Below, piece by piece: positions 22,941 to 41,521 of a stretch of 64,000 nt of DNA. The stretch is from Sandaracinus amylolyticus (GTDB lineage: Bacteria; Myxococcota_A; Polyangia; Polyangiales; Sandaracinaceae), in contig NZ_CP070225.1 in assembly GCF_021631985.1 (NCBI RefSeq), positions 5,518,001 through 5,582,000 of the forward strand, written 5' to 3'. How positions within the stretch are numbered: position 1 is the stretch's first letter; every line of letters begins with the position of its first letter. Position numbers and translations under genes: made by a program. A model generated the notes under the pieces. It did no database searches. It was not told the origin of the DNA and was given only the letters and a program-made list of their open reading frames with translations.

Positions 22941-23069
22941 GGCACCGTCTCGCCAGGGCCTGCCCCCGAGCGGGGCCGGAGCGACCGGACGGTGTAACCG
23001 ACGGGCGGGGGGGGCGCCAATCCCGCAGGACGAGGCGCCAAGAGGGTCGCCGTGCGTGCCGTCACGCGA

Positions 23070-24926
23070 TCAGATGGGAATCACGCGGAGATCGAGGCCC
23101 GCGGGGTAGGCGTAGGAGGTGTAGAGGCCCAGACCGTACGCCATCACGCCCACCGGCGTGGCCGCGCGCACCTCGTGCGTGCCGCCGGACACCGGCACGG
23201 TCGCGATCTCGCGATCACCGACGGTCGTCCACGTCGCTTCGATGGTGCGGCCGTCGAGCGTGATCGGCTCGTCGGGCTCGCGCGAGATCACGAGATACGA
23301 CTGGCCGTTCACGACCGGCGTGTACGACGACGGCGTGATGAAGACGTAGTCGCGCCGGAACTGCTCGGTCGGCACGAGGTGCGTCATCGACGGGTCGCCG
23401 CGCTCGAGCGGCGGGTCGGTGATGTTCTGGCCGACCGAGAGCTGCACGACCTGGATCGGACGGCTCGCGGTGATCGACACCGGGTGATCGAACGTCACCT
23501 CGATCCACTCGCCGGCGTCGAGCGACGCATCGTCGAGGTGCACGTCGGGCGTGATCGCCACGTCGGTGCCGTCGTGCGCGGCGATGATGCGCAGCGTGTT
23601 CGGCACGTCGGTGTCGGGATCGCGCATCGGCATCGTCTGGTAGCTGCGGCCCCAGGTCTCGACCGGCGCGAGCGTCGTCTCGAGGTGATCGCAGGCGCCG
23701 ACGTCGTACGGCACGTACGCGCAGACGTGGCCGCCGAAGACCGAGATCGGGCGATCGCTCGTCACGCGCGAGCCGGTGAGGTCGTACTCGTCCTCGCGGC
23801 ACGCGCCCGCGACGATCTCGGGCTCGGGGCTGTAGTCGTGGAACACCGGGCGCTCGGGGCCGCACTCGGGCGGCACCGCGGCCGCGACCTGCGCGACCTC
23901 GCCGCGCGCGAGCGTGAAGCGGATCGTCCCGCCGCGCGCGGTGGCGGGCCAGCGACCGCCGGAGTCGGCGGCGACGTGCGCACCGACGACGATCTCGACG
24001 TTCGTCGGCTCGCTCGAGGTGCCGACGATCGCGACGTAGCCGGGGGTGCGGTAGTAGACGCGATCGCCGTCGAAGGTGGTGCCGACCGTCGAGATCGGGA
24101 CGTACGACGCAGCGACGTGATCGCGGCCGAGCACGTGCGAGGGCAGCAGCAGCGACGCGTCGTTGCTGAAGGAGTTGCGAGCCAGCCGCGAGTAGTGGAA
24201 CGGGTTGAACTGCGAGACGATCACCGGGCGCGACGAGATCAGCCGGTACGCGCCGTCGGCGGTGGTCACGCTCTCCCAGTCGTTGGGATCGATCGGGAAC
24301 GACACGCCGTCGACCCAGGGCAGCGGGATCTCGGTGAGGCCTCCGGGAGGAACGCGCTCGCGCGCGACGAGGCGCGGGCCGCGCGTGATCGTCACGTCGG
24401 CGGGCGCGGAGCTCGGGTTCGCGACGACCACGCGGAAGTCGAACGCGTCCCGCTCGAGCTCGGTCGTGTTCGCGAGCGGGACCGGCCAGTACTCGCAGCC
24501 GACGTTGGAGCGCACGGCCTCGGCGAGACCGCACGCGTCGTCGCAGAGACCCGAGCCGCCGCACGCGACGCCCCACTCGGAGCAGTCGCGCACCGGCAGC
24601 CATCGATGGTCTTCGTCGCAGCGGAGCGAGACGTCGCCGTCGCAGCGGAACGAGCCGGGGATGCACTCGATGCAGCCCGTCGCGGGATCGCAGCCGCCTT
24701 CGCAGAGCTCTTCGTCGGTGCGCGAGTGGCCGTCGGCGCCGCAGACGTAGTGCACGTAGCCGAAGCAGCCGGGCGCATCGGGCTCGCAGGTGAAGCCTGC
24801 GTCGATGGGCCCGGTGTCGGGCGGCGGAGCATCGGCGCCCGCGTCGCGGCTCGGGAGGAGCGGGCCGTCGTCGACGACGCACGCGGACGTGACGAGCGAG
24901 AGCAGAAGACAAGCGAGACGACGCAT
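23070..24926 (-). CDS. IgGFc-binding-type lipoprotein, cassette copy B
   Basis: 618 residues from ATG at 24926. Lipobox TSAC near residue 16 and a short Asp/Pro linker. A Cys-rich segment (about 45-150, with CDEDHRW, CSEWG and CGGSG) precedes a long beta-rich IgGFc_binding-like domain marked by VVANPSSAPADVTITRG, SQFNPFHYS, SNDASLLLPSHVLGR, and QNITDPPLERGDPSM. In other organisms this domain is found in large mucin-like or adhesive extracellular proteins; IgG binding itself is not implied. Third gene of cassette B, and close paralogue of the gene at 29660. Likely displayed at the cell surface. Confidence 0.82.
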   Translation of the reverse strand: MRRLACLLLSLVTSACVVDDGPLLPSRDAGADAPPPDTGPIDAGFTCEPDAPGCFGYVHYVCGADGHSRTDEELCEGGCDPATGCIECIPGSFRCDGDVSLRCDEDHRWLPVRDCSEWGVACGGSGLCDDACGLAEAVRSNVGCEYWPVPLANTTELERDAFDFRVVVANPSSAPADVTITRGPRLVARERVPPGGLTEIPLPWVDGVSFPIDPNDWESVTTADGAYRLISSRPVIVSQFNPFHYSRLARNSFSNDASLLLPSHVLGRDHVAASYVPISTVGTTFDGDRVYYRTPGYVAIVGTSSEPTNVEIVVGAHVAADSGGRWPATARGGTIRFTLARGEVAQVAAAVPPECGPERPVFHDYSPEPEIVAGACREDEYDLTGSRVTSDRPISVFGGHVCAYVPYDVGACDHLETTLAPVETWGRSYQTMPMRDPDTDVPNTLRIIAAHDGTDVAITPDVHLDDASLDAGEWIEVTFDHPVSITASRPIQVVQLSVGQNITDPPLERGDPSMTHLVPTEQFRRDYVFITPSSYTPVVNGQSYLVISREPDEPITLDGRTIEATWTTVGDREIATVPVSGGTHEVRAATPVGVMAYGLGLYTSYAYPAGLDLRVIPI

Positions 24927-25032
24927 GGGGACCTCTCCTCGAGCTCGATCGAGATGGCGAGGGCGTGCACGAGCCGACGCGGCGCTCGGGTTCACCGGTT
25001 GGCTTCGCGCGCGAGAGCAAGCGGGGCTGGGG

Positions 25033-25083
25033 CCCCGATCCGGCTTTGCCGGTCGGGGGGAGGGGTCTTCCAAGACCCCTCCC
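25033..25083 (-). terminator. Paired hairpins between cassette-B genes
   Basis: Two adjacent stems: CCCCGA..CCGGC-TTT-GCCGG-TCGGGG (25033-25058) and a 12-bp perfect arm pair GGGAGGGGTCTT/AAGACCCCTCCC (25058-25083) with almost no loop. They lie seven bases after the stop of the TolB-like gene and before the IgGFc gene, so may attenuate transcription or protect the mRNA end. No T-run follows on the minus strand, so a full terminator is not certain. Confidence 0.55.
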
Positions 25084-25089
25084 GCAAGC

Positions 25090-27126
25090 TCAGATCGGCG
25101 GGACGTATCCGCAGACGCCGAGGTTGCACTCGAGGCCGCTGCAGCAGTCGGCGGCGGTCTCGCACGACTCGCCGCCACGACGGCAGACGCTCGGCGGCTG
25201 GCAGGTGAGCACGTCGGGCATCGAGGGATCGCTCGCCGCGCACTCGCCCGAGCAGCACTCGCTCGAGGTGCTGCACGACTCGCCCTGCCCGCGGCACCCG
25301 GTCGGTGCCCAGAGCGCGGCGATGTCGTCGGCGCGCGTGTCCTGACCCGGCAGCCAGTACGGCGGCGAGCTCGGATCTTCGCCGCGCTCGACGAGCGCGG
25401 GATCGATCGCGGTCACCCAGAGCTGACGACGACCGGTGTCGCGCGTGCCCGCGTACGCATTGCCGTAGTCCTGGCGCGAGTAGAACGCGAGCCAGTAGAG
25501 GCGCGTGCCGTCGGCTTCTTCGGTGACGAAGGGCGAGAAGACGGGCCAGAACGCGTCGACCTGGCCCTCGACGCCCATGCCGCGCTCGAGGCGGATCGGA
25601 GCGCCGCCCTCACGCGAGACGACGTAGAGCGCGGCGCGCGGAGGCTCGGCGCCGAATTCGGTCGCGGAGACCGAGCTCGCGCCGTGCGCGAACGCGAGGA
25701 AGCGCGAGTCGGGCGACCACGTCGGGCGCGAGTCGGTCGAGCCGCCCTCGGACGACTCGGAGAGGGACGCGCCCTCGTGCACGATGCGCGGCGCACCGAG
25801 CGCGTCGTCGCCCTCGATCGGCGCGACGACGATGGTCGTCGGCGCGCGCGTGCCCCGCGGACCGTCACCGCCGCCCTGCATCCACGCGACCCACGCGCCG
25901 TCGGCCGACCACGCGGGATAGCCTGCGTCGCCCTCGGGCAGGCCCGTTGCGGACGTCGGCAGGCCGGTCGCGCCGTCGAGCATCACGAGGCGCGACACGC
26001 CGCTCGCCTCGGTGCCCTCGGCGCGGCTCGCGAGGATGCGCGCGCCGTCGGGTCGGAACGCGAGGAAGTGATACGAGGGCTCGAAGGGCCCGAGCAGGTC
26101 GGGCGGAGGCGCGGTGCTGCTCGCGGTGTCGACGATCGTGGTCGCCCACGTCGCGGCGCGCGAGTCGAGCGTCGATGCGAGGCGGCGGCCGTCGTGCGAG
26201 AGCGAGTGGCAGCCGACGCATGCGCCGCTCTCGGTGCCGAACACGCTCGCGCGCGCACCGGTCGCCGCGTCGAGGCGGAACACGTCACTCGACTGCGGAT
26301 CGGGGCGGACCTGCCAGTAGTAGACGGTGCCGTAGAGGCCGTCCTCGCTGAGCCAGACGCGCACCGGCTGACCGAGGAACACCGTGGTGCCGCCCGACGC
26401 GACGCGATCGACGCGCAGCTCGAGCTCTTCGCCGCGCGCGCTGTCCGCGATGGTGCGCCACGTCTCGCGATCGCTCGCCCAGCTCGACGTGAAGCCACGA
26501 CCGCTGTCGTACGCGTACGCGCGCACCGTCGCGTACGGCGTCGAGAGCACGATGCGGTACGCGTCGTCGGCGCCGCCGCGCGGGAGCGGGTCCCACTGCA
26601 CGACGGGAGGAGCGACGTTGTTCGGCATGCGCGCGCCGTCGAGCGGGTACTCGAGCAGCACGCTCTCGAAGGGATCCTCCGCCTCGGGGAGATCGAAGCG
26701 ATCAGGCACGCTCGGCGGCACGCTGGGATCGAGCGGCGCGTCGCGCTCGATCAGCACACGCACCGTCGCGCGACCTTCGATCGTGGCGATCGCGCCGGGC
26801 GCGCGCGCGACGACCTCGACGACACCTCCGGCGCGCCCGTCCGCGGTGAACACGCCGCTCGCGTCGACCGCGCCGATGCGGTCGTGGGTGAGCCGCCACG
26901 ACTCGGGCGTCACCTCGATCATCTCGCCGTCGAGCGTGCGCGCGTAGGCGCGGAAGCTCGCGGTGGGCGTCGCGCCCTCGATGCTCGTGAGCTCCACCTC
27001 GGCGGGCTCGAGCACGAGGCTCGCGGTCTGCAGGCCGCCGTCGGGCTCGCCCATCGGCGTCTCGCCGGTCGTGCACGCGGCGAGCGCGAGCGCCACGCCG
27101 AGCGACATCGAGAGTCTCGTCGTCAT
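25090..27126 (-). CDS. TolB-like propeller lipoprotein with one c-type heme site, copy B
   Basis: 678 residues. Lipobox LAAC near residue 18. A Big-like beta domain (about 30-125), a second beta region with FGTVYYW-type strands, then a heme-c attachment motif CVGCH (about residue 303) followed by LSHDGRRLA, and a WD40/TolB-like propeller (FRPDGARILAS, WSADGAWVAWM, WSPDSRFLAFAHG). The C-terminus is a Cys-rich knot with CCSGEC and CCSGLECNLGVCG. The start overlaps the stop of the propeller gene by one base (TGATG), so the pair is translationally coupled. A secreted redox or sensing role is inferred from the heme motif. Paralogue of the gene at 31634. Confidence 0.82.
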   Translation of the reverse strand: MTTRLSMSLGVALALAACTTGETPMGEPDGGLQTASLVLEPAEVELTSIEGATPTASFRAYARTLDGEMIEVTPESWRLTHDRIGAVDASGVFTADGRAGGVVEVVARAPGAIATIEGRATVRVLIERDAPLDPSVPPSVPDRFDLPEAEDPFESVLLEYPLDGARMPNNVAPPVVQWDPLPRGGADDAYRIVLSTPYATVRAYAYDSGRGFTSSWASDRETWRTIADSARGEELELRVDRVASGGTTVFLGQPVRVWLSEDGLYGTVYYWQVRPDPQSSDVFRLDAATGARASVFGTESGACVGCHSLSHDGRRLASTLDSRAATWATTIVDTASSTAPPPDLLGPFEPSYHFLAFRPDGARILASRAEGTEASGVSRLVMLDGATGLPTSATGLPEGDAGYPAWSADGAWVAWMQGGGDGPRGTRAPTTIVVAPIEGDDALGAPRIVHEGASLSESSEGGSTDSRPTWSPDSRFLAFAHGASSVSATEFGAEPPRAALYVVSREGGAPIRLERGMGVEGQVDAFWPVFSPFVTEEADGTRLYWLAFYSRQDYGNAYAGTRDTGRRQLWVTAIDPALVERGEDPSSPPYWLPGQDTRADDIAALWAPTGCRGQGESCSTSSECCSGECAASDPSMPDVLTCQPPSVCRRGGESCETAADCCSGLECNLGVCGYVPPI

Positions 27127-29525
27127 CACTCGCCCGCTCCGAATGCGAAGTGTGCGAGGCCCACGCTCGGTCCCGTGCCCGCGCGCGCGAACCCGCCGCC
27201 CACGTAGAGGCCGTCGTCCATCACGACGAGGCCGTGCACGATGTCGCTCACGCCACCTTCGAAGCCGCGCCACGTGGTGCCGTCGAAGACGCCCACCGAC
27301 TCGTTCGGCTCTCCCGGCGTGATGCTGAACGTGCCGCCCGCGTAGAGGTGATCGCCGTACGCGTGGAGCGAGTACGCCGCGCGTCCCGAGTGGTCGGGCG
27401 CGTTGCGGCTCGAGAGCCCTGCACCGAGGTTCTCCCACGCGGTGCCGTTCCACGCGGCGACGGCCTCGATCGGCGCGGCGCCGCTGTTGTGGATCGTGCC
27501 GCCCGCGACGAGGCGGTCGCGCCACCACGCGAGCGACCACACCACCTCGAAGGGCCGCGCGAGCCCGTCGCCGAGCGCGTGCCACGCCTCGCCGTCCCAG
27601 CGCGCGACGTTCGTGACGTCGAGCTCGCCCGCGCGCGCGAACGATCCCGCGACGTAGAGATCGCCGGTCGCGGCGTCGCGCGCGATCGCATAGATGGCCG
27701 CCGCGTTGGGCTCTTCGGCCCACTCGAACTGCCAGCCGACGAGGCCGGGGATCGCGGTCCACGACTCGCCGTCCCACACCGCGAGGCCGCTCGCGGGCGT
27801 GCTCCCACCGACCTCGGTGAAGTCACCGCCGACGAAGAGCAGATCGGGATCGTCCGCGCCTTCGCCGAGCACGTGCAGCAGCGCGCGCACCGGGCCGTTG
27901 GTGCCGCCGCCGACCTCGCTCCACCGCGCGCCGTCCCACGCGGCCAGGTTCGCGAATTCGGTGCCGGTGTTGTTGTCGCGGAACTCGCCGCCGGCGTACA
28001 CGCGCGCGCCGTCGGTCGTCGCCTCGATCGCGTTCACCACGCCGAGCAGGCCGCGGCCGAGCGTCTCGAACCCGCCCTCGCGCGTGTAGCGCGCGATGTT
28101 GTCCGCGCGGACGTCGCCGACGTACTCGAACTCTCCGCCGATGTAGAGCGCGCACGTGCCGACGCGATCCATCGCGAACACGTTGCCGGCGACGCCCTCG
28201 GTCCGCTCACCCGGCGTGCGCAGCGACGACCAGTACGTGCCGTCGTAGCGCACGACGTGCGACGCGCGCGTGCTGCCCGCGTGCGTGAAGAGCCCGCCGA
28301 AGTACACGCTGCCGTCGGGCCCGGCCGCGACGAACCAGACGTTCTCGTCGATCGAGAAGCCGACGTCCTTCCAGAGGCCACCGATGTCGTGCCAGCGCGC
28401 TCCGTCCCAGCGCGCGACGTGCGGCGTGGCGAGCGTCTCGTAGCCGCCGGCCCAGTCGAACGCGCCGCCGACGTAGAGCCCGTGATCGACGATCGCGACA
28501 CCGCGCACGAGCCCCGGGCCGCCGAAGAGATCGGACACGCCGTTGCCGATCAGCTCCCAGTGATCGCCGGCCCAGCGCGCGATGCTCCCTTCGTTCGCCA
28601 GCTCGCCCAACTCGCCTCGCGTCGTGAGCGCGAAGCTGCCGCCCGCGATCAACGTCACGCCGTCGCGATCGCGCACCAGCTGGTTCACCACGAAGTGCGG
28701 CATCGGCAAGCTGCGCGCGCTCCACGCGGTGCCGTTCCAGCAGGCGACCGAGCGCGCCTCGATCGCGCCGAGCGTGCTGAACGCGCCGCCCACGCAGACG
28801 TCGTCGAGCGCGCGCGCGGAGATCGTCTCGACGCCCTGATCGGGCGTGAAGCCCTCCCACGCGCTCCACGTCGTGCCGTCGAGACGCGCGAGATAGGTCG
28901 CGTCGACGCCGCCGATGCGCGTGAAGTGGCCGGCCGCGATCAGCGTGGACCCGACGATCGCGAGATCGACGATCGCGCCCTCGCTCGCCGCGACCTCGGT
29001 CCACGAGGAGCCGTCCCAGCGCGAGAGGCGCGTGTTCTCCCACTCGCTCGGAGGCGTCCACGCGGCCCACACGGTCGAGCCCTCGACCGCGAGCGCGCGG
29101 ACCTGCCCTTCGAGGCCGTCACCGAGCGCGCGCCAGCCACCGGCCGCGGTCCACACCGCGACGTTGTTCGCGGGCGCGTATCCGGCCGCGTCGAAGGTGC
29201 CCGCGATGTAGACCTCGCCGCTCGGGCCGAACGCGATCTCGCTCACGTTCGGGAGGTCGCCGCCGACGCCCGGCACCGCGAAGCGATTCTCCCACTCGCC
29301 CTGCGTCGGATCGGCCGGCGCGTCCGGCTCGATCTCGATGCACGGCGGACCGGAGTCGACGCGCGGCGGACCGCCGTCCCCTCCGTCGGGCACGGGAGGC
29401 TGCGCATCGAGGAGCTGCGCATCGCTCGTCACGCCGCCATCGCGGTCGGAGAGCAGCGGACCGTCGTTGCACGCGGAGAGCGCGACGACGGCGGTGAAGG
29501 AAAGCAAAGAGCGAACGAGCGTCAT
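27126..29525 (-). CDS. Repeat beta-propeller lipoprotein, copy B
   Basis: 799 residues. Lipobox LSAC near residue 19, Asp/Pro/Gly linker to about residue 65, then some fourteen or more repeats of about 45-50 residues with the core (V/I)ARWDGxxWxxLGxG...V.AL, alternating with LYVGGxFxxAG strands. This is a kelch/galactose-oxidase-like or delta-60-like propeller surface. No catalytic residues recognised. First gene of cassette B, preceded by the shared ECF-type promoter element and followed with a one-base overlap by the TolB-like gene. Close paralogue of the gene at 33720. Confidence 0.82.
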   Translation of the reverse strand: MTLVRSLLSFTAVVALSACNDGPLLSDRDGGVTSDAQLLDAQPPVPDGGDGGPPRVDSGPPCIEIEPDAPADPTQGEWENRFAVPGVGGDLPNVSEIAFGPSGEVYIAGTFDAAGYAPANNVAVWTAAGGWRALGDGLEGQVRALAVEGSTVWAAWTPPSEWENTRLSRWDGSSWTEVAASEGAIVDLAIVGSTLIAAGHFTRIGGVDATYLARLDGTTWSAWEGFTPDQGVETISARALDDVCVGGAFSTLGAIEARSVACWNGTAWSARSLPMPHFVVNQLVRDRDGVTLIAGGSFALTTRGELGELANEGSIARWAGDHWELIGNGVSDLFGGPGLVRGVAIVDHGLYVGGAFDWAGGYETLATPHVARWDGARWHDIGGLWKDVGFSIDENVWFVAAGPDGSVYFGGLFTHAGSTRASHVVRYDGTYWSSLRTPGERTEGVAGNVFAMDRVGTCALYIGGEFEYVGDVRADNIARYTREGGFETLGRGLLGVVNAIEATTDGARVYAGGEFRDNNTGTEFANLAAWDGARWSEVGGGTNGPVRALLHVLGEGADDPDLLFVGGDFTEVGGSTPASGLAVWDGESWTAIPGLVGWQFEWAEEPNAAAIYAIARDAATGDLYVAGSFARAGELDVTNVARWDGEAWHALGDGLARPFEVVWSLAWWRDRLVAGGTIHNSGAAPIEAVAAWNGTAWENLGAGLSSRNAPDHSGRAAYSLHAYGDHLYAGGTFSITPGEPNESVGVFDGTTWRGFEGGVSDIVHGLVVMDDGLYVGGGFARAGTGPSVGLAHFAFGAGE

Positions 29526-29558
29526 CGGGATGCCGTCTCCTCGCGAGTCGTGATGGGG

Positions 29559-29584
29559 TGACGGACACCGGACGCGACCGGCTC
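29559..29584 (-). promoter_or_regulatory. ECF-type promoter element, cassette B
   Basis: On the minus strand GAGCC (29584-29580), 16 bases, then CGTCA (29563-29559), 33 bases before the ATG at 29525. Spacing and -10 CGTC are those of ECF sigma promoters. The same element with the same spacing lies before cassette A and, with GCGCA at -10, before the ECF sigma gene at 38883. Function inferred from the three-way match. Confidence 0.65.
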
Positions 29585-29592
29585 AGAAATGT

Positions 29593-29619
29593 GAAAAGAG
29601 CGGCGCGATGCGCCGCTCT
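29593..29619 (-). terminator. Rho-independent terminator after cassette A
   Basis: Read on the minus strand, a 10-bp perfect stem AGAGCGGCGC/GCGCCGCTCT with a 3-base loop (29619-29597) is followed by TTTT. It lies 40 bases after the stop of the IgGFc gene at 29660 and before the promoter of cassette B, so it separates the two transcripts. Confidence 0.8.
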
Positions 29620-29659
29620 CTCCATGCACACCGGTCGCGCGATCACGCGCGCGAATCGA

Positions 29660-31540
29660 TCAGATCGGGATGATGCGAAGGTCGAGGCCCGCGGGATACG
29701 CGTACGACGTGTAGAGGCCGAGGCCGTACGCGATCAGACCGACGGGCGACGCCGCGGTGAGGCGGTGGTTGCCCGCGGGCACCGGGACGATGGCGAGCTC
29801 TCGATCACCGACGCGCGTCCACTCCGCCTCGAGCGCGCGTCCGTCGAGCGTGATCTCCGCGCTCGGCTCGCGCGAGATCAGGAGATACGACTGACCTCGC
29901 GCGAGCGGCGCGTACGACGAGGGCATCGCGAACACGTAGTCGCGGCGGTACTGCTCCTCGGGCACCAGCGTCGTCATGCCGGGGTCGCCGCGCTCGAGCG
30001 GCGGATCGGTGATGTTCTGGCCGACGAGGAGCTGCGCGACCTGCACCGGGAGCGACGAGGTGATGATCATCGCCTGATCGAACTCGAGCTCGACGTGCTC
30101 GCCCGCGTCGAGCGTGACCTCGCCGCCGCTGCGCGGCGGAGGATCGAGCGTGACGGTCGTCCCGTCGTGCGCGGCGGTGATGCGCAGCAGGTTCGCGATC
30201 GTCGTCTCGGGGTCGCGCATCGGCATCGTCGAGAAGCGCTTGCCCCACGTCTCCACGGGCGCGAGCTGCGTCTCGAGGTGATCGCACGCGACGATGTCGT
30301 ACGGGATGTTCGTGCACGTGTGGCCGCCGAACACCGCGACCGGTCGATCGCTGTGCACGCGCGAGCCCGTGAGGTCGAACTGCTCCTCGCGGCAGTACGC
30401 CGTGACGCGCGGCTCGTCCTCTTCGACGTCGTGGAAGCCGGGGCGATCGGGCGCACAGACCGGCGGCACCGCGGCCGCGATCTGCGCGACCTCGCCGCGC
30501 GCGAGCGTGAAGCGGATGGTGCCACCGCGCGCCGTCGCCTCCCAGCGTCCGCCCGCGTCGGCGGCGACGTCGCCCGCGACCTCGATCTCGACCGCGGTGG
30601 GCTCCGCGGAGACGCCGACCACCGCGAGGTAACCGGGATAGCGCGCGCTGTCGGCGGGATATTCGTCGGTGGGATCGAAGTCGTCGCTGATCGAGAAGGG
30701 CACGTACGAGGTGCCGACGTGCTCGCGGCCGAGCACGTGCGCGGGCAGCAGCAGCGACGCGTCGTTGGTGAACGAGTAGTCGGCCACCGCCGACGCGTAG
30801 TGGAACGGGTTGAACTGCGTGACGATCACCGGCACCGACGAGGTGAGGCGGTACGCGCCGTCGGCGGTGACGACGCTCTCCCAGTCGTTGCTCGCGAAGG
30901 GGAACGACACGCCCTCGATCCACGGCAGCGTGATCTCGGCGACCCCGCCGGGCGTGACCTGCCGCGTCTCGATCACGCGACCCGCGCGCGAGATCGAGAC
31001 CGTCGCGCGCGTGCTGCCGGGGTTCGCGACGACGACGCGGAAGTCGTACGCGCGCGAGTTGAGCTCACGGATGTTCGCGAGCGGGACCGGCCAGTACTCG
31101 CAGCCGACGTTGGAGCGCACCGCCTCGGCGAGGCCGCAGGCGTCGTCGCAGATGCCCGAACCGCCGCACGCCGAGCCCCACTCGCTGCAGTCGCGCACCG
31201 GCTGCCAGCGGTGATCCTCGTCGCAGCGCGTCGACACCGTTCCGTCGCAGCGGAACGAGCCGGGCACGCACTCGATGCAGCCCATCGCGGGATCGCAGCC
31301 GCCCTCGCAGACCTGCTCGTCCTCGCGCGACGCGCCGTCGTCGCCGCACACGTAGTGCACGTACCCGAAGCACCCGGGCGCATCGGGCGTGCACGAGAAG
31401 CCCGCGTCGATCGGGCCGCCGTCGGGCATCTCCGCGTCGACGCCGGAGTCGCGCATCGGCAGGAGCGGACCCTCCTCGACGACGCACCCGGACGTCACGA
31501 GCGAGAGCGCGATCGAGAGCAGAGGAGCGAGACGACGCAT
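29660..31540 (-). CDS. IgGFc-binding-type lipoprotein, cassette copy A
   Basis: 626 residues from ATG at 31540. Lipobox TSGC near residue 18. Same order as copy B: Cys-rich segment with CDEDHRW, CSEWGSACGGSGICDD, then the long IgGFc_binding-like beta domain with QFNPFHY, FTNDASLLLPAHVLGREHV, QNITDPPLERGDPGM and the shared closing GLGLYTSYAYPAGLDLR. Most residues match copy B by eye, with insertions in the middle (the DDFDPTDEYPADSARY segment). A small 5' extension to 31555 is possible but would precede the signal peptide. Third gene of cassette A, ending 40 bases before a good terminator. Confidence 0.82.
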   Translation of the reverse strand: MRRLAPLLSIALSLVTSGCVVEEGPLLPMRDSGVDAEMPDGGPIDAGFSCTPDAPGCFGYVHYVCGDDGASREDEQVCEGGCDPAMGCIECVPGSFRCDGTVSTRCDEDHRWQPVRDCSEWGSACGGSGICDDACGLAEAVRSNVGCEYWPVPLANIRELNSRAYDFRVVVANPGSTRATVSISRAGRVIETRQVTPGGVAEITLPWIEGVSFPFASNDWESVVTADGAYRLTSSVPVIVTQFNPFHYASAVADYSFTNDASLLLPAHVLGREHVGTSYVPFSISDDFDPTDEYPADSARYPGYLAVVGVSAEPTAVEIEVAGDVAADAGGRWEATARGGTIRFTLARGEVAQIAAAVPPVCAPDRPGFHDVEEDEPRVTAYCREEQFDLTGSRVHSDRPVAVFGGHTCTNIPYDIVACDHLETQLAPVETWGKRFSTMPMRDPETTIANLLRITAAHDGTTVTLDPPPRSGGEVTLDAGEHVELEFDQAMIITSSLPVQVAQLLVGQNITDPPLERGDPGMTTLVPEEQYRRDYVFAMPSSYAPLARGQSYLLISREPSAEITLDGRALEAEWTRVGDRELAIVPVPAGNHRLTAASPVGLIAYGLGLYTSYAYPAGLDLRIIPI

Positions 31541-31570
31541 GGGGACCTCACGCAACGAGGCTCGAAGAGA

Positions 31571-31608
31571 GGACGTGCACGAGCGCGCGCACCGGCACGT
31601 GCACGTCC
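31571..31608 (-). other. Intercistronic hairpin in cassette A
   Basis: GGACGTGCAC (31571-31580) and GTGCACGTCC (31599-31608) form a 10-bp perfect stem with an 18-base loop, in the 93-base gap between the TolB-like and IgGFc genes. Copy B has unrelated hairpins at the equivalent place, so a structure there may be selected though its sequence is not. Confidence 0.45.
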
Positions 31609-31633
31609 GCGGAAGCGAAGAACGAGATGCGGA

Positions 31634-33694
31634 TCAAATCGGAGGGACGTATCCGCAGACGCCGAGGTTGCACTCGAGGCCGCCGCAGCAGTCGCTCGCG
31701 TCCTCGCACGACTCGCCCGAGCGGCGGCACACCGTCGGCGGGCGGCACGTGAGCACGTCGGGCATCGAGGGATCCGCCGCGGCGCACTCCCCGGAGCAGC
31801 ACTCCGACGAGGTGCTGCACGACTCGTCGCGACCGCGGCAGCTCGTCGGCGCCCAGAGCGCCGCGATGTCGTCGGCATGCGTGTCCTGGCCGGTGAGCCA
31901 GTACGGCGGCGAGCTCGGATCCTCGCCGCGCTCCGCGGCCTCGGGATCGATCGCCATGACCCAGAGCTGGCGCCGCGACGTGCCCGCCGTTCCGGCGCGC
32001 GCGTTCCCGAAGTCCTGGCGCGAGTAGAACGCGAGCCAGAAGAGCCGCGAGCCATCGCGCTCCTCGGTCACGAAGGGCGAGAACACGGGCCAGAACGCGT
32101 CCACGGGACCGCCCTCGCCCATGCCGCGCACGAGGCGGATCGGCGTGCCGCCGTCGCGCGACGCGAGATAGAGCGACGCGGTCGGAGGCTCGGCGTCGAA
32201 CTGCACCGAGGACACCGAGCTCGTGCCGTGCGCGAACGCGAGGAAGCGCGAGTCGGGCGACCACGTCGGGCGTGAGTCCGTGCTCCCGCCCTCGGGCGCC
32301 GACGCGAGGCTCGCGCCCTCGTGCACGACGCTCGACGCGCCGAACGCATCGCCCTCGCCGACCTCGCTCACGAGGATGCGCGTCGCGTTGCGCGTCCCGC
32401 TCGGGCCGTCGCTGCCGCCGTCCATCCACGCGACGCGCGCGCCGTCGGGCGACCACGTCGGATATCCGGCCTGACCGGTGGGCAGCCCCGTCGCCGCGAT
32501 CTCGGCGCCGGTCGCTCCGTCGAGCAAGAAGAGCGCGGTCACGTCGCGCGTCGCGGGCGCGAGCGGACGGCTCGCGAGGATGCGCGTCGCGTCGGGCGAG
32601 AACGCCATGAAGTGATAGGCCGGCGTGAACGGGCCCATCACGTCGGGCGGCGGCGCGCTCGCGCTCGTCGTGTCGACGACCGCGGTCGTCCACTGCACGG
32701 CGCGCGAGTCGAGCGTCGCCGAGAGCTGACGCCCGTCGTGCGAGAGCGCGTGACAGCCGACGCAGCCACCCGACTCGGTGCCGAACACGCTCTGTCGCGT
32801 GCCGCTCGCCGCATCGAGACGAAGCACGTCGCTGCCCTGCGGATCGACGCGCACCTGCCAGTAGTAGACGGTGCCGAAGACGCCGTCCTCGCTGAGCCAG
32901 ACGGTCACCGGCGTGCCGCGCACGACCTCGCTGCCGCCGCTCGGGATGCGATCGACACGCAGCGTGACCTCCTCGCCGAGCGCGCTGTCCGCGACGACGC
33001 GCCACGTGTTGCGATCGATCGGATAGCTCGCGCGGAACGTGCGGCCGTCGTCGTAGGCGTACGCGCGCACCATCGCGTGCGGCGTCTCGATCACCACGCG
33101 GAACGCATCGCCCGCCTGCGCGAACGGCTCCCACTGCAGCTCGGGCGCGCCGACGTTGTTCGGCATGCGCGCGCCCTCGAGCGGATAGAGCAGCGCGGGC
33201 GACTCGAAGGGCTCTTCGACCTCGGGCAGCGTGTCGAACCGATCGGGCACCGTGGGCGGCACCGTCGGATCGAGCGGCACCGAGAGCGTGAGGCGCACGC
33301 GGATCGTCGCGTGCCCGACGACCGGCGCAATGACACCGGGCACGCGCGCAGTGACCTGCACCGCGCCGCCGGCGCGCCCGCTCGCCGTGAACGTGCCGTG
33401 CTCGTCGATCGCGCCGATGCGATCGTGCGAGAGCGTCCAGCTCTCCGGCGACACCTCGACGCGCTCGCCCTGCACCGTGCGCGCGAACGCGCGCAGCGTG
33501 ACGGTCGGCATCGATCCGTCGGCGCTCAGGAGCTCGGCCTCGGCCGGATCCAGCTCGAGCGAGACGACCTCGTTGCCGCCGTCGGTGGTGTCGGGCGGGT
33601 CGTCGCCGCGCTCGGTGCACGCGCCTCCTCCCAGAGAGCTCAGCGCGAGCGCCAGCAGCGCGAGCCACGGCGCGTGTCTCGAGAGGGGAGTCAT
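31634..33694 (-). CDS. TolB-like propeller lipoprotein with one c-type heme site, copy A
   Basis: 686 residues from ATG at 33694 (longer in-frame versions lose the signal peptide). Lipobox GGAC near residue 25. Domain order as in copy B: Big-like beta domain, GTVYYWQV strands, heme-c motif CVGCH with the following ALSHDGRQLS, TolB-like propeller repeats (FSPDATRILAS, WSPDGARVAWM, WSPDSRFLAFAHG), and the terminal Cys knot. Conservation of CxxCH in both paralogues argues that the heme matters. It begins 25 bases after the propeller gene stop, whereas copy B overlaps by one base. Confidence 0.82.
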   Translation of the reverse strand: MTPLSRHAPWLALLALALSSLGGGACTERGDDPPDTTDGGNEVVSLELDPAEAELLSADGSMPTVTLRAFARTVQGERVEVSPESWTLSHDRIGAIDEHGTFTASGRAGGAVQVTARVPGVIAPVVGHATIRVRLTLSVPLDPTVPPTVPDRFDTLPEVEEPFESPALLYPLEGARMPNNVGAPELQWEPFAQAGDAFRVVIETPHAMVRAYAYDDGRTFRASYPIDRNTWRVVADSALGEEVTLRVDRIPSGGSEVVRGTPVTVWLSEDGVFGTVYYWQVRVDPQGSDVLRLDAASGTRQSVFGTESGGCVGCHALSHDGRQLSATLDSRAVQWTTAVVDTTSASAPPPDVMGPFTPAYHFMAFSPDATRILASRPLAPATRDVTALFLLDGATGAEIAATGLPTGQAGYPTWSPDGARVAWMDGGSDGPSGTRNATRILVSEVGEGDAFGASSVVHEGASLASAPEGGSTDSRPTWSPDSRFLAFAHGTSSVSSVQFDAEPPTASLYLASRDGGTPIRLVRGMGEGGPVDAFWPVFSPFVTEERDGSRLFWLAFYSRQDFGNARAGTAGTSRRQLWVMAIDPEAAERGEDPSSPPYWLTGQDTHADDIAALWAPTSCRGRDESCSTSSECCSGECAAADPSMPDVLTCRPPTVCRRSGESCEDASDCCGGLECNLGVCGYVPPI

Positions 33695-33719
33695 CACTGC
33701 GTGCTCCTCTTCTGCGTCT

Positions 33720-36104
33720 TCAGGGCGCGAACCGCCAGAGCGACAGCCCGACCGAGGGGGAGGTGCCGGTGCGGTCGAAGGTGCCACCGACGTACACGCC
33801 CTCGTCCATCCCGACGAGCGCCTCGACGATGTCGCTCGCGCCCTCGCCGAGCGGCGTCCACGTCGTGCCGTCGTAGACCGCGACGTGCGTGCCCTCGCCC
33901 TCGCCGAACTGCATGCTGCCGCCGACGTAGAGCGCGCTGCCGACCGCCTCGACCGCGACGACGTGCGGGAAGCCCTCGAGCGGGATCGGTCCGACCGCCT
34001 CCCACGCGGTGCCGTTCCACGCCGCGACGCGGCCGACCGTCGTCTCGCCGCTGCTCTCGAACGTGCCCACCGCGACGAGGCGACCGTTCCAGAACGCCAG
34101 CGCGTTCGGGTGCTCGGAGATGCGCCCCAGGCCGTCGCCGTAGGCGTGCCACGCCTCGCCGTCCCAGCGCGCGATGTTGTTCACCACGAGCCCGTCGGGC
34201 CCCGCGGTGCGGAACGCGCCCGCGACGATCAGATCGCCGCTCTCGGGGTCGCGGAGGATCGCGCGCACCGAGGTGCCCGCGCGCTCTTCACCGGTCGGAT
34301 CCCAGTCGTACGGATAGCCTTCGAAGCCGCCGCCGATCGCCGTCCAGACCTCGCCGTTCCACATCGCGAGGTCCTCCGCGGGCACCTCACCGGCGTTGTC
34401 GAAGTCGCCGCCGACGTAGATCAGCTCCTGCGCATCGGGCGAGTCCGCCGGGACGCTCTCGAGCGCGCTCACCTCGCCGTCGACGCTGCCGCCCAGCGGG
34501 CGCCACTCCGACGCGTCCCAGAGCGCGACGTTGCGGAAGACGGTGCCGCTCTCGTCGGAGAACGCGCCGCCCGCGACGACGCGACCCTCACCGAGCACCT
34601 CGATCTCGAGCACGCTGCCGACCACGCCGTCGCCGAGCGCCTGGTAGCCACCCTCGCGTGTGTAGCGCGCGATGTTGTTCGCGCGGATCGGCCCGGCGTA
34701 GGTGAACGTGCCGCCGACGTAGATCGCGCACGACGCCTCGCGCTCGAGCACCGCGACCGAGCCCGCGACGCCCTCGTACTCCTCGTCGGGCGTGCGCAGC
34801 GCCGACCAGTACGTCCCGTCGAAGCGCACGACGTGCGAGACGGTGACGCTGTCCGAGCGCGTGAAGAGGCCGCCGAAGTAGACGCTGCCGTCGGGGCCCG
34901 CGCCGACCATGTAGACGTTGTCGCTGCCGCCGATGAAGCCGACCTCGGCGTAGACGCCGCCGATGTCGTCCCACTCGCCCTCGCGCCAGCGCGCGACCGC
35001 GTTGACCGGGCGCGGCTCCGCCGCGTCGATCGCGCGGAACGCACCGCCCACGTACATGCCGCTCGGCGCGAACGCGACGCCACGCACCGACTTGGTGCTT
35101 CCCGGCCCGAACTCGCTCATCACGCCGCGGCCGATCAGCTCCCAGCGATCGCCGACCCAGCGCGCGATGCTGCCGCCGTTCGTGCCGGTGTCGTCGAGCA
35201 TGAAGTCGCCCGCGCCCACCAGCGATCCGTCGGCGGGATCACGCTGCAGATCGTAGAAGCCGATGTAGTGCTCGAAGGGGAGCGGACGCGCCTGCCACGC
35301 GGTGCCGTTCCAGCACGCCGCGCCGCGCGACGCGACGACACCGAGCGTCGAGAAGCTGCCGCCGATGCACACGTCGTTCAGCGACGTCGCGGAGATCGCC
35401 TGCACGGTTCCGTCGGGCGCGAGGCCCGCGTAGCCGGTCCACGTGGTGCCGTCGAAGCGCGCGAGCCCCGCGACGTCCACGCCGCCGATCTGCGTGAACC
35501 CACCCGCGGCGAGGAGCGTCGTGCCGACGAACACGATCTCCTCGATCGAGCCGGTGCTCTCGGCGACGGTCGTCCACGCCGTGCCGTTCCAGCGCGCGAT
35601 GCGCGTCGCTTCCCAGCCGTCGTCCGGCGCGTACGCCGCGTGGACGGTCCCGTCGGTCGCGACCGCGATCGAGCGCACACGGCCGCTCAGTCCCTCGCCC
35701 ATCGGGCGCCAGCCGGTCGCGCCGTCCCACGCCGCGATGTTGCGCGCGGCCTGATAGCCGGCCGTCGTGAACTCGCCACCGATGTAGACGGTGCCGTCGG
35801 CGCCGAAGCCGATCGAGTTCACGTTCGGCAGGTCGCCGCCGACGCCGGGATTCGCGTAGCCCGGCTCCCACGCGCCCGCAGTGGGGTCCGCCGGGAACTC
35901 GGGCTCGCGCGTCGCGCACGCCGGTCCGCCGTCGACCGGAGGCGGGCCCGCGTCACCACGGCCGCCGTCGACGTCCGGCACGTGCGCGTCGGGCGTCGAC
36001 GCATCGCCGGCACCGCCGTCACGGTCCGAGAGCACGGGGTCGCTGCCGCACGCACACAGCGCGAGCGCGATCGACACGGAAACGAAGCGTCGAGTGAACG
36101 TCAT
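33720..36104 (-). CDS. Repeat beta-propeller lipoprotein, copy A
   Basis: 794 residues. Lipobox LCAC near residue 19, Asp/Pro/Gly linker, then the same series of ARWDGxxW...LYVGG repeats as in copy B. Ribosome site GAGGAG lies 10-15 bases before ATG 36104. First gene of cassette A. The ECF-type promoter element is 31 bases upstream and overlaps the stop codon of the OMP gene before it. Likely a surface-exposed binding scaffold; no enzyme motif. Confidence 0.82.
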   Translation of the reverse strand: MTFTRRFVSVSIALALCACGSDPVLSDRDGGAGDASTPDAHVPDVDGGRGDAGPPPVDGGPACATREPEFPADPTAGAWEPGYANPGVGGDLPNVNSIGFGADGTVYIGGEFTTAGYQAARNIAAWDGATGWRPMGEGLSGRVRSIAVATDGTVHAAYAPDDGWEATRIARWNGTAWTTVAESTGSIEEIVFVGTTLLAAGGFTQIGGVDVAGLARFDGTTWTGYAGLAPDGTVQAISATSLNDVCIGGSFSTLGVVASRGAACWNGTAWQARPLPFEHYIGFYDLQRDPADGSLVGAGDFMLDDTGTNGGSIARWVGDRWELIGRGVMSEFGPGSTKSVRGVAFAPSGMYVGGAFRAIDAAEPRPVNAVARWREGEWDDIGGVYAEVGFIGGSDNVYMVGAGPDGSVYFGGLFTRSDSVTVSHVVRFDGTYWSALRTPDEEYEGVAGSVAVLEREASCAIYVGGTFTYAGPIRANNIARYTREGGYQALGDGVVGSVLEIEVLGEGRVVAGGAFSDESGTVFRNVALWDASEWRPLGGSVDGEVSALESVPADSPDAQELIYVGGDFDNAGEVPAEDLAMWNGEVWTAIGGGFEGYPYDWDPTGEERAGTSVRAILRDPESGDLIVAGAFRTAGPDGLVVNNIARWDGEAWHAYGDGLGRISEHPNALAFWNGRLVAVGTFESSGETTVGRVAAWNGTAWEAVGPIPLEGFPHVVAVEAVGSALYVGGSMQFGEGEGTHVAVYDGTTWTPLGEGASDIVEALVGMDEGVYVGGTFDRTGTSPSVGLSLWRFAP

Positions 36105-36134
36105 CGGTGCGGGCTCCTCGGGGTCGTGATGGAG

Positions 36135-36160
36135 TGACGCGCACCGCTCGAGACCGGCTC
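36135..36160 (-). promoter_or_regulatory. ECF-type promoter element, cassette A
   Basis: On the minus strand GAGCC (36160-36156), 16 bases, CGTCA (36139-36135), 31 bases before ATG 36104. The -35 element overlaps the TGA stop of the 36159 OMP gene, so cassette A can be transcribed both by readthrough from the sigma operon and from its own promoter. Confidence 0.65.
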
Positions 36161-37241
36161 AGAATTGTGAAGGCGTGATGGCGACCCGGAGCGCCGCCGC
36201 GAAGAAGGGCCCTCCGACGATCACCGGAGGCTCTTCGGTCACCTCTCCATCGGGCGCGAACGCGATGACGCCAAGCCCGAGCGGGACCGAGATCACCACC
36301 GGACCGAGGCGGAGCGAAGGCGCGACCTCGAGCTGCGCCTCGGCCGCGATCGCGATGGTCGTGCCGCCCTCGACGTCCGGGGAGGCAGGCCGACCTTCGA
36401 GCACGAGCAGGTCGCCCGACACCCACACGCCGAGATCGGCGAAGAGCGGCCCGAGGCTCGGCGTGCGCCACGCCGCGCCGATGCCGAGGATGCCCGCGTA
36501 CACGTCGATGTCACCGCGCGTGCGCGAGGTGCGCGCGAACTCGGTCGCGATGCGCAGCCCGGCGACGATCGAGTCGTCGATCACGATCGCGCCGCGCAGC
36601 CCGGCGCTCGCGGTCGCGAGGTGCTCGCCGTCGAGGCGAAGGCGGGTGCCGCCCTCGAGCGAGATCTCGGCATCGATGCGCGGCGGAGGCGGCGGCGTCG
36701 GTGGCTCGACCGCCGGCGGCGCGACGACCACGGGCGCGGGCGGCGGCGGCTCGACCACGGGCTCCTGCGGCGGGGCCGCGGTCTGCGCTTCTTCGATCGC
36801 ACCGCGCGCGATGCGCTCTGCTTCTTCGGCGCCCGGCGCGCCCTCGACCACCGCATCGCCGTCGATCAGCAGCTCGAGCCACGACGTCAGGAAGAGCTGC
36901 GCGATCGCCAGCGCGAGCACGCGCTCGCGATCGGCGCTCGGCCACACGATCGTCCGCGCGACGCTCTTGTCGGTGATCGGATCGGTGATCTCGATCCGCA
37001 CGCGATCGCCGGTGCATCCGAGCAGCACCACCGGCGTCGACACCTCGCGCCACGCGAGGGTCACGTCGGCGAGCTCGACCTCGAGCAGGCGCTGCACCTC
37101 CGCGAGATCGACCTCGCTGCAGGAAGGCGCAGCGATCGTCAGATCGGCACGCGCGCGCGCCGGCCCGATCGTCCACGCGGCGAGCACGAGCGCCGCGCCC
37201 ACGACGGGACTGCAACGCCACGCCTCACGAGGTCCGATCAC
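36159..37241 (-). CDS. OMP-like exported protein of the sigma-FecR operon
   Basis: 360 residues from GTG at 37241, overlapping the FecR stop by four bases. Signal peptide ending ARARA (about residue 33). An N-terminal mature domain with two Cys (SCSEVDL and LLGCTGD) resembles TolB N-domain-like folds and includes ITDPITDKSVARTI. A long Pro/Val linker (about 165-205) leads to an amphipathic beta-rich C-terminus (IDAEISLEGGTRLRLDG and onward) that looks like a small outer-membrane barrel. The plan matches the protein encoded at 14347-15435. Possibly the envelope output or sensor partner of the sigma system. Confidence 0.72.
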   Translation of the reverse strand: MIGPREAWRCSPVVGAALVLAAWTIGPARARADLTIAAPSCSEVDLAEVQRLLEVELADVTLAWREVSTPVVLLGCTGDRVRIEITDPITDKSVARTIVWPSADRERVLALAIAQLFLTSWLELLIDGDAVVEGAPGAEEAERIARGAIEEAQTAAPPQEPVVEPPPPAPVVVAPPAVEPPTPPPPPRIDAEISLEGGTRLRLDGEHLATASAGLRGAIVIDDSIVAGLRIATEFARTSRTRGDIDVYAGILGIGAAWRTPSLGPLFADLGVWVSGDLLVLEGRPASPDVEGGTTIAIAAEAQLEVAPSLRLGPVVISVPLGLGVIAFAPDGEVTEEPPVIVGGPFFAAALRVAITPSQF

Positions 37242-38296
37242 TCGGCCAAGTGACGCACACGTTCTGCGTAGAGGCCAGAGGGGTGCAGCTCGAGATAACG
37301 CTGCGCCGCCACGCGCGCCCGCTCGCGACGGCCCGCGGCCGACCACGAGACCGCCGCCTCGGCGAGCGCATCCTCGGCGAGCGCACCGTGCGGCGCGCGC
37401 GCGAACGCCGCCTCGAACGCCTCCGCCGCGGCCGCATCGCGCGCCCGCGCGCGCTCCACACGACCGAGCGTGAAGAACGCGGTCGCGACCCGCGGATCGC
37501 GCGGCTCCGCCGTCGTCGCCGCCCGCAGCGCGCGCGCCGCGTCGTCGAGACGTCCGGCGCGCCGCGCCTCGTCGGCCTGCGCGAGCAGCGCCTCGATGCT
37601 CTCGCGGCGCGCCGGGCGCGGCGCACGCTCGATCGACGACGTCTCGGGCTCGGGCTCGATCGCCTCGATCACCGGCTCGGGCGCGACCTCCGGCTCCACG
37701 ACGGGCTCGTCGGCGCGCATCCGCACCCGCAGCGCCTCGCCGGCGCCGAGCATGCTCGCGTCGTCGCCCCGCGCGACCTCGACGCGCCCTTCCTCGACCT
37801 CGACCTCCACGTCGAGCTCGCCGCGCCGCACGACGAACTGCGTGCCGCGCACCCGCACCTCGACGTCCTCGAGCACCACGACGAACGAGCGCTCGGGGCG
37901 ATGGCTCACGACGTAGCGCGCCTCGCCCGCGAGCTGCGCGATGCGCACCGCGCCCTCCGACTCCGACTCCACGCGCACGTCCGCCGACGACGCGAGGAAC
38001 ACCTCGGATCCATCGCGCAGCGACAAGCGCGCCGGGCGCGACGTGCCCGCCTCGCCCTCGACCGCGACCGTCGCGATCGCATCCCCGCGCGAAGGCTGGG
38101 CCGCCGGGCGCAACCACACGAGCGCCAGCGCCGCCGCGACCGCCACGCCCGCACCGAACGCGATCCCGACGCGCGCGCGACGACGCCGCGCCGCGCCTTC
38201 TCCTCGCGCTGCGAGCACGCGCGTCAGCACGCGCCGCTCCCGCAGCTCGTCCCAGTCCGGCTCGGCGCGCCGTGCCTGCTCGAGGTCGACGCTCAT
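37238..38296 (-). CDS. FecR-domain membrane regulator with TPR tail
   Basis: 352 residues from ATG at 38296. Cytosolic N-terminus of about 40 residues, one TM helix (about 42-62), FecR-like beta domain (about 75-175: SLRDGSEVFLASSADVRV, LAGEARYVV, VRVRGTQFVVRRGELDVEV), Glu/Pro stalk, then TPR-like helices (about 230-350). FecR proteins relay an outer signal to a cognate ECF sigma; here the partner is the upstream sigma gene, joined by ATGA overlap (38293-38296). Anti-sigma activity is inferred. Confidence 0.85.
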   Translation of the reverse strand: MSVDLEQARRAEPDWDELRERRVLTRVLAARGEGAARRRRARVGIAFGAGVAVAAALALVWLRPAAQPSRGDAIATVAVEGEAGTSRPARLSLRDGSEVFLASSADVRVESESEGAVRIAQLAGEARYVVSHRPERSFVVVLEDVEVRVRGTQFVVRRGELDVEVEVEEGRVEVARGDDASMLGAGEALRVRMRADEPVVEPEVAPEPVIEAIEPEPETSSIERAPRPARRESIEALLAQADEARRAGRLDDAARALRAATTAEPRDPRVATAFFTLGRVERARARDAAAAEAFEAAFARAPHGALAEDALAEAAVSWSAAGRRERARVAAQRYLELHPSGLYAERVRHLAE

Positions 38297-38883
38297 TCGC
38301 GGCCTCCCGCGCCCACCACGTAGCCCCGCTTCGCGAGCAGCGCCGCTGCTTCCGCGATCCTGCGCTTCACCGTCGCCAGCGACACGCCGCAATGCTCCGC
38401 CACCTCGGGCAGCGTCAGCCCCTCGACGTGATGCAGCGTCCAGGGAACGCGCCGCTCGATCGAGAGCATCGCGAGCGCCTGATAGAGCGCGTACGCCTCG
38501 CCCTCGACCTCCGGCGAGACCGAGCGAGGCTCGGTGCGCCCGAAGATCCCGGCGAGCCAGCGCTGTCGCTGCCGCCGTCCGAGCCGGCGCGCCACCTTCC
38601 GCACCGCGATCGTCACGAGCCAGGCCCGCAACGTGGCGCCCTCCTTCAGCCCGGCGAGCCCCTCCGACGCCGCGACGAAGGTCTCCTGCACCACGTCGTC
38701 GAGCTCTCCGTCGTCGCCCATGAGCCGGTACACCACGCCCGCCACGTAGCGGGCGTGCTTGCGATAGATCGCGGTGAAGGCGCGCTCGTCACCCCCCGCG
38801 GCGCGCGCGGCGAGCGTGGCGTCGTCCTCGGGGACGGCGGCGATCTTGGCGGCGGCAGCGCTCATGGGATCGGAGTCGCTCAT
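38293..38883 (-). CDS. ECF RNA polymerase sigma factor of the cassette regulon
   Basis: About 196 residues from ATG at 38883 (another ATG at 38865 is possible and would suit the promoter position better). Region 2: ERAFTAIYRKHARYVAGVVY, DDVVQETFVAASEGL, ATLRAWLVTIAVRKVARRL. Region 4: ERRVPWTLHHVEGLTLPEVA, then SLATVKRRIAEAAALL. First gene of an overlapping operon with fecR-like and OMP genes. The GAGCC-N16-GCGCA element sits right before the start, suggesting self-activation. Confidence 0.9.
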   Translation of the reverse strand: MSDSDPMSAAAAKIAAVPEDDATLAARAAGGDERAFTAIYRKHARYVAGVVYRLMGDDGELDDVVQETFVAASEGLAGLKEGATLRAWLVTIAVRKVARRLGRRQRQRWLAGIFGRTEPRSVSPEVEGEAYALYQALAMLSIERRVPWTLHHVEGLTLPEVAEHCGVSLATVKRRIAEAAALLAKRGYVVGAGGRE

Positions 38884-38887
38884 GGAG

Positions 38888-38913
38888 TGCGCGCGACCCA
38901 CCCCGAACGGCTC
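38888..38913 (-). promoter_or_regulatory. ECF-type promoter element before the sigma gene
   Basis: On the minus strand GAGCC (38913-38909), 16 bases, GCGCA (38892-38888). Aligned without gaps with the two cassette elements it also shares GGT in the spacer and CACTCCAT just after. If active from ATG 38883 the message would be leaderless; from ATG 38865 it would have a short leader. Confidence 0.55.
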
Positions 38914-38976
38914 AACTCTTTTCCGACCGCCACCCGGAAGACCCTGCAGCGCTCCGCCCACCCCGGCAATGCCCCG

Positions 38977-39573: not shown

Positions 39574-39613
39574 GGGAGCGAGCCCTACCTCCGGCGCGAA
39601 CCTCCGTCGAGGC

Positions 39614-40192: not shown

Positions 40193-40195
40193 TGC

Positions 40196-41521
<1,326 letters not shown>

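Follow-up and report, generated by a model that had tools for sequence, protein, structure and literature searches.

In a 64,000-nucleotide stretch of the Sandaracinus amylolyticus chromosome (the window; contig NZ_CP070225.1, positions 5,518,001 to 5,582,000) nine consecutive genes on the minus strand encode an extracytoplasmic function (ECF) sigma factor (SIG), a FecR-type anti-sigma-like protein (FECR), a small outer-membrane protein (OMP) and two sets of three lipoproteins (PROP, HEME and IGG). We consider it probable that this block is a surface-signalling system, with the small OMP in the place of a TonB receptor and with propeller lipoproteins at the surface as its output. The reading is built on gene content and order and their conservation, on a promoter-like element with its positional enrichment, on a terminator-like hairpin and on predicted folds, all read directly from the sequences. 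What appears to be new is the regulatory evidence, pointing to a putative regulon with a shared and precisely spaced promoter-like element in two soil myxobacteria. An earlier reading of this DNA from its letters alone (the original prediction) had the lipoproteins as apparent targets of the sigma factor, and this has gained support, with one spaced element at SIG, PROP1, PROP2 and the remote PROP genes, and also at SIG and PROP genes of another family.

Content of the nine-gene block

The host chromosome has 10,754,065 bases in a genome of 10.96 Mb. All nine open reading frames were found, with coding-type GC content at third codon positions (GC3), and they were recovered again by a home-made codon-usage gene caller. 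The Pfam domains agree and the same order is found in a second species, so that the run of nine minus-strand genes with named domains stands as originally described. In minus-strand order the genes are:

38293 to 38883, minus: SIG, ECF sigma factor of 196 aa (Sigma70_r2 4.8e-14, r4_2 1.7e-10; sigma70-ECF 63 bits, cut-off 43)
37238 to 38296, minus: FECR, anti-sigma-like protein (FecR 7.9e-13, TPR_16 3.4e-5)
36159 to 37202, minus: OMP, periplasmic domain and predicted 8-stranded barrel (model pLDDT 86; OmpA and NspA matches)
33720 to 36104, minus: PROP1, Rax2/DUF5122 beta-propeller lipoprotein (Pfam)
31634 to 33694, minus: HEME1, Ig-like and TolB-type propeller lipoprotein with CVGCH at residues 311-315 and a Cys-rich tail (Pfam PD40)
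29660 to 31540, minus: IGG1, IgGFc_binding lipoprotein (Pfam 1.6e-73)
27126 to 29525, minus: PROP2, propeller lipoprotein (Pfam Rax2/DUF5122)
25090 to 27108, minus: HEME2, TolB-propeller lipoprotein with CVGCH and a Cys-rich tail (Pfam PD40)
23070 to 24926, minus: IGG2, IgGFc_binding lipoprotein (Pfam 1.3e-73)

By Pfam SIG has sigma regions 2 and 4 only, as in ECF sigma factors. Each of the six cassette proteins opens with a lipobox-like signal, that of HEME1 being atypical.

A shared promoter-like element

When the regions upstream of SIG, PROP1 and PROP2 are read side by side they share TGAGCCGKTC-N15-CACYCC at equal spacing, which in -35/-10 form is TGAGCY-N16-SGNCAC, with GCGCAC as the -10 of SIG. 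The three sites in the window are:

38887 to 38914, minus: SIG element, TGAGCC-N16-GCGCAC, conserved in the sister species (G012; L097 11725, plus strand)
36134 to 36161, minus: cassette 1 element before PROP1, TGAGCC-N16-CGTCAC, its TGA doubling as the OMP stop codon
29558 to 29585, minus: cassette 2 element before PROP2, TGAGCC-N16-CGTCAC

In both species the core stands before each of the four PROP genes, of which two lie millions of bases away, and the element is also present before SIG and PROP in G053 and G068, which belong to a distant family. Among the loci compared, 10 of 19 PROP genes and 8 of 33 SIG genes have the core TGAGC[CT]GNTC in the 200 bp before them (Fisher 1.3e-15 and 5.8e-10 respectively), as against 3 of 756 other genes and none of the 71 IGG, HEME, OMP and FECR genes. 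With the discovery sites and their orthologs left out the PROP enrichment is at 1.4e-9. One spacing stands out: when the half-sites are 16 nt apart a gene follows 14 of the 17 matches, as against 2 at most for every other gap between 10 and 23. The core is present at all PROP genes in the four genomes that carry the sigma clade of SIG, and missing at all five PROP loci examined in genomes without that clade (L101-L104, L106). On this evidence we infer that SIG would read the TGAGCY-N16-SGNCAC element.

In a genus-wide scan with a looser pattern the sites present in both species and right before genes were those of SIG, PROP1, PROP2, PROP3 and a Trypsin_2-domain lipoprotein at 0.72 Mb, the last with the element 45 bp upstream in each species (L277 5006-6580, minus; L279 6334-7929, plus). 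A second protease-like lipoprotein gene (Trypsin, L109 12105-13199) stands directly before PROP4. Several strict matches were discarded as coding, among them those at 6.65 Mb (codons for MSRSRFF) and 0.317 Mb. The remaining strict matches are coding, not before a gene, or unconserved, with one exception: in both species (L262, L271) a match overlaps the stop codon of a peroxiredoxin-like gene, and the gene that follows is about 200 bases further on.

Several observations weigh against our reading. Genome-wide, the looser pattern (13-16 nt gap) has 16 sites in this genome and 15 in the reversed control, and a plain genome-wide excess was therefore dismissed as an argument, leaving only position, spacing and conservation to speak for the element. 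PROP4, at 10.21 Mb, has a weaker -10, CGCGAC. The periplasmic domain of OMP, discussed below, has no relative that we could identify. Finally there are about ten paralogous triads in this genome, several with the TGAGCCG half before the sigma gene, and another sigma factor could read some of the sites.

This last point leads to an alternative that we think quite unlikely, in which the element is read by one or more paralogous sigma factors, perhaps of overlapping specificity, and the control exerted by SIG extends no further than its own operon. Several of the paralogous triads in this genome do have TGAGCCGTTC upstream of the sigma gene, but the complete element, with SGNCAC at the set spacing, clusters at SIG, PROP and the trypsin lipoprotein. 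Further, it is missing at PROP genes where the SIG clade is absent, and linked SIG and PROP genes share it in the genomes of the other family.

The annotated SIG start deserves comment. The promoter element begins at 38914, so the start codon is at 38883 or lower, and a second ATG at 38868 may be the true start. The -10 ends 3 bases before the annotated ATG, an arrangement kept in G012 (window 38868-38914), so that either the SIG mRNA is leaderless or translation starts at 38868.

With regard to transcription units, there is one further feature between the cassettes:

29595 to 29625, minus: intrinsic-terminator-like hairpin, GAGCGGCGC-ATC-GCGCCGCTC-TTTT (z -5.25; z -6.14 in the sister species)

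It sits between IGG1 and the PROP2 element, with TTTT after the hairpin, and is kept in both species, so cassette 2 is probably its own transcription unit. The automatic terminator scan requires five T and thus missed it.

FECR and OMP as probable signalling parts

FECR is predicted from hydropathy and Pfam to have a cytosolic N-terminus of about 42 aa, which carries EPDWDELRERRVL, one transmembrane segment, a periplasmic FecR domain and a tetratricopeptide repeat (TPR) part. The N-terminal motif EPxWDxLREQRVL, which the transmembrane segment follows, is conserved beside related sigma factors, and adjacency of sigma and FecR genes recurs in many genomes. By analogy with FecI/FecR (PMC9249621), SIG would be held or loaded by the cytosolic part, and reception of the signal would fall to the periplasmic part.

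OMP has no Pfam or NCBIfam match. Its AlphaFold2 model has an N-terminal periplasmic domain of b-a-b-b-b-a topology, with two near-invariant Cys, and an 8-stranded barrel for which the best PDB matches by Foldseek are OmpA and NspA; Foldseek gave barrel matches only, none pointing to function. A TonB-dependent receptor with plug and signalling domain was looked for, and OMP, with its 8-stranded OmpA-like barrel, is not one. The operon encodes no other outer-membrane candidate.

We class the block as a variant of FecI/FecR, since it may work in a similar way and lacks the TonB receptor. In common with FecI-FecR-FecA of E. coli (ferric citrate) and FpvI/FpvR/FpvA and PupI/PupR/PupB of Pseudomonas, it has an ECF sigma gene beside one for a single-transmembrane, N-in FecR protein. 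Like these systems it includes a predicted outer-membrane barrel with an N-terminal periplasmic domain, and would have an output at the surface. It differs from them in having no TonB-dependent receptor, the barrel here having 8 strands, and in the short cytosolic segment and C-terminal TPR of FECR. It also differs in that SIG appears to be autoregulated, and in having lipoproteins as apparent targets, several of them remote.

The C-terminus of FECR resembles YbgF/BamD-type TPRs, proteins of envelope assembly, and OMP lies directly before the lipoprotein cassette here and in G053 and G068, and before RCC1 or Big_5 genes in other triads. Both points would suit a different arrangement, with OMP in an outer-membrane assembly or export path, FECR and its TPR sensing the export load, and SIG receiving feedback from its own products. 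However an 8-stranded OmpA-like barrel offers no pore for folded lipoproteins and no OMP gene accompanies PROP at the remote loci, and we regard such an export role as unlikely.

Distribution of the families and related triads

Among 145 genomes of the order there are relatives of OMP in 28, of PROP in 22, of HEME in 93 and of IGG in 111. The original prediction took the three lipoproteins as a system dedicated to this sigma factor, and that part is not supported, with HEME in 93/145 and IGG in 111/145 genomes against 22 for PROP and 28 for OMP. HEME and IGG largely occur independently of each other and of the sigma factor, which for these two families is to a large extent the outcome that the original prediction had named as refuting it. 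The trio of lipoproteins is also found elsewhere: PROP, HEME and IGG are together without this sigma in four genomes (G041, G002, G036, G083), and in the other genera with the trio there is no sigma gene adjoining and no element before PROP. PROP and IGG are together at a remote locus at 7.54 Mb in this genome and, in the sister species, at the corresponding place (L110, L112). Two genomes of another family repeat the linkage of SIG, FECR, OMP and PROP, with neither HEME nor IGG (L099, L100). PROP is thus linked both to the sigma module and to HEME and IGG, and what is conserved as a unit is SIG-FECR-OMP together with a propeller lipoprotein. A PROP alignment scan of 84,980 genomes retained 80 loci, mostly generic propellers of Planctomycetes and Hymenobacter, the only informative ones (L167-L169) matching loci already in the comparison set.

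There are 17 FecR matches in the genome, including those of about ten triads resembling SIG-FECR-OMP. In the sigma tree SIG of the window belongs to an eight-member clade (100/99). The others in it stand at the head of PROP (G053, G068) or RCC1-propeller lipoproteins (G007, G015, G080), with one on a short contig (G066). The RCC1 triads (L113, L114 and L132 in the SIG clade, and L134 of this genome in its sister clade) have the same gene order with a propeller lipoprotein fourth, and several have the TGAGCCG half-site before the sigma gene; they differ in having RCC1 repeats in place of the Rax2/DUF5122 propeller, and no HEME or IGG. The sigma factors of L115, L116 and L142 form one separate clade and lie beside Big_5 lipoproteins of about 1200 residues. 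The triad is a general device with varied cargo, given the number of triads in the genome and the differing lipoproteins headed by clade members, and propeller lipoproteins are a theme in the clade of SIG.

Other neighbours of triads may be recorded here. Pairs of Big_5-repeat lipoprotein genes adjoin three triads of this genome (L115 7856-19999, L116 1096-11563, L142 5403-15771). Genes for cytochrome c or MauG-type di-heme proteins follow two triads (L133 7157-11689, L136 5394-9538), and redox cargo under FecR-associated sigma factors may thus recur. In L140 (4483-8919) an SBBP beta-propeller gene with TGAGCCGTTC upstream lies before the sigma gene and is read in its direction, which adds another type of propeller with a tie to the sigma family of SIG.

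The mreB-mreC site and history of the cassettes

The sister species (G012) has the same order: mreB, a lipoprotein-like gene, DUF6151, SIG to IGG2, mreC, mreD, mrdA and rodA. In these two species the mre operon is interrupted, with about 17.5 kb between mreB and mreC-mreD-mrdA-rodA (window 22940-40406). In the third genome of the genus (G030) mreB is followed by mreC after about 126 bases with no cassette, so the block has been inserted into, or lost from, the mreB-mreC gap. Two flanking genes belong to the same insertion and are kept in G012:

38977 to 39573, minus: DUF6151 (GFA-like) gene
39614 to 40192, minus: small lipoprotein-like gene

A TTGGCG-N17-TACA-like stretch before mreC, seen by eye, is kept with and without the cassette, and mreCD-mrdA-rodA may thus retain its own promoter. 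A dispersed repeat of about 80-110 bases, often in tandem with a period of about 90 bases, has 51 matches in this genome (one on a small contig), 64 in the sister species and none in G030. Two tandem copies lie at window 40200-40405, in the space that separates mreB from its neighbour; the sister species has none there.

That unrelated lipoprotein genes merely happen to lie beside a sigma operon in this gap seems to us very improbable. The HEME and IGG families are indeed common and mostly unlinked, and the block is absent from G030, but the order is kept in two species, the promoter is common to linked and remote sites, and PROP-HEME-IGG neighbourhoods exist in other genera too.

The two copies within the block have 69% identity for HEME, 70% for IGG and 54% for PROP, whereas orthologs between the species have 85-94%, so the duplication predates the species split. 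HEME1 and HEME2 are sisters in trees (100/100), as are IGG1 and IGG2 (100/99), which upholds the original prediction of a tandemly duplicated cassette for these two genes. It is not upheld for PROP, as the tree tends to place PROP1 with the remote PROP4 (92/91), and monophyly of PROP1 and PROP2 is neither shown nor rejected (p-AU 0.09). A single ancient duplication of all three genes fits the HEME and IGG pairs and was set aside for lack of support for PROP1 and PROP2 as sisters.

The lipoproteins

Each HEME protein combines an Ig-like part at the N-terminus with a TolB-like propeller and a Cys-rich tail; Foldseek gave only TolB/propeller matches, none pointing to function. Both contain CxxCH, and it is invariant across all 14 relatives compared, some with as little as 26% identity. 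The genome has three Cytochrom_C_asm matches, making attachment of heme to these exported proteins possible, and on the strength of the invariant CxxCH both may carry covalent heme. Other CxxCH PD40/TolB-like lipoproteins share the TolB-type propeller, the lipobox, the single invariant CxxCH and the Cys-rich tail, and are unlike those here, which are a sigma-linked tandem pair between PROP and IGG. Likewise, myxobacterial IgGFc_binding proteins (PF17517) share with IGG a full-length domain match, a lipoprotein signal and a Cys-rich N-terminus, and differ in that most relatives in the order are unlinked to PROP, HEME or a sigma gene.

A literature search found nothing on the function of IgGFc-type, propeller or CxxCH lipoproteins in these bacteria, and nothing useful on FecR or IgGFc-binding in myxobacteria. 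Our guess is that PROP, HEME and IGG act at the surface in binding or processing extracellular material, and that they include a redox-active protein if the heme proves genuine.

Proposed mechanism and significance

We suggest that SIG, FECR and OMP form a module for signalling across the envelope, of FecI/FecR type but with no TonB receptor. FECR would act as anti-sigma, its cytosolic segment holding SIG at the inner membrane and its FecR and TPR domains extending into the periplasm, and OMP is the most likely partner to act as sensor, reporting a surface or envelope cue. Once freed, SIG would transcribe its own operon and the PROP-HEME-IGG cassettes from TGAGCY-N16-SGNCAC promoters, and remote targets would include at least one PROP-IGG operon, another PROP gene and the trypsin-like lipoprotein. 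The output would be surface-anchored propeller lipoproteins that form a coat, a c-type cytochrome-like protein among them, and these probably bind or process extracellular material.

More tentatively, and with rather less confidence than an even chance would imply, the ten or so parallel copies of sigma, FecR-TPR and small OMP, needing no TonB energy, could be an undescribed class of Myxococcota surface signalling in which each copy drives its own type of lipoprotein to give switchable coats.

If our reading is correct, a list of neighbouring genes becomes a defined and testable regulon, with one sigma factor, about six promoters, remote targets and an outer-membrane partner that is not a TonB receptor, and a way comes into view in which myxobacteria may govern the many lipoproteins on their surface.

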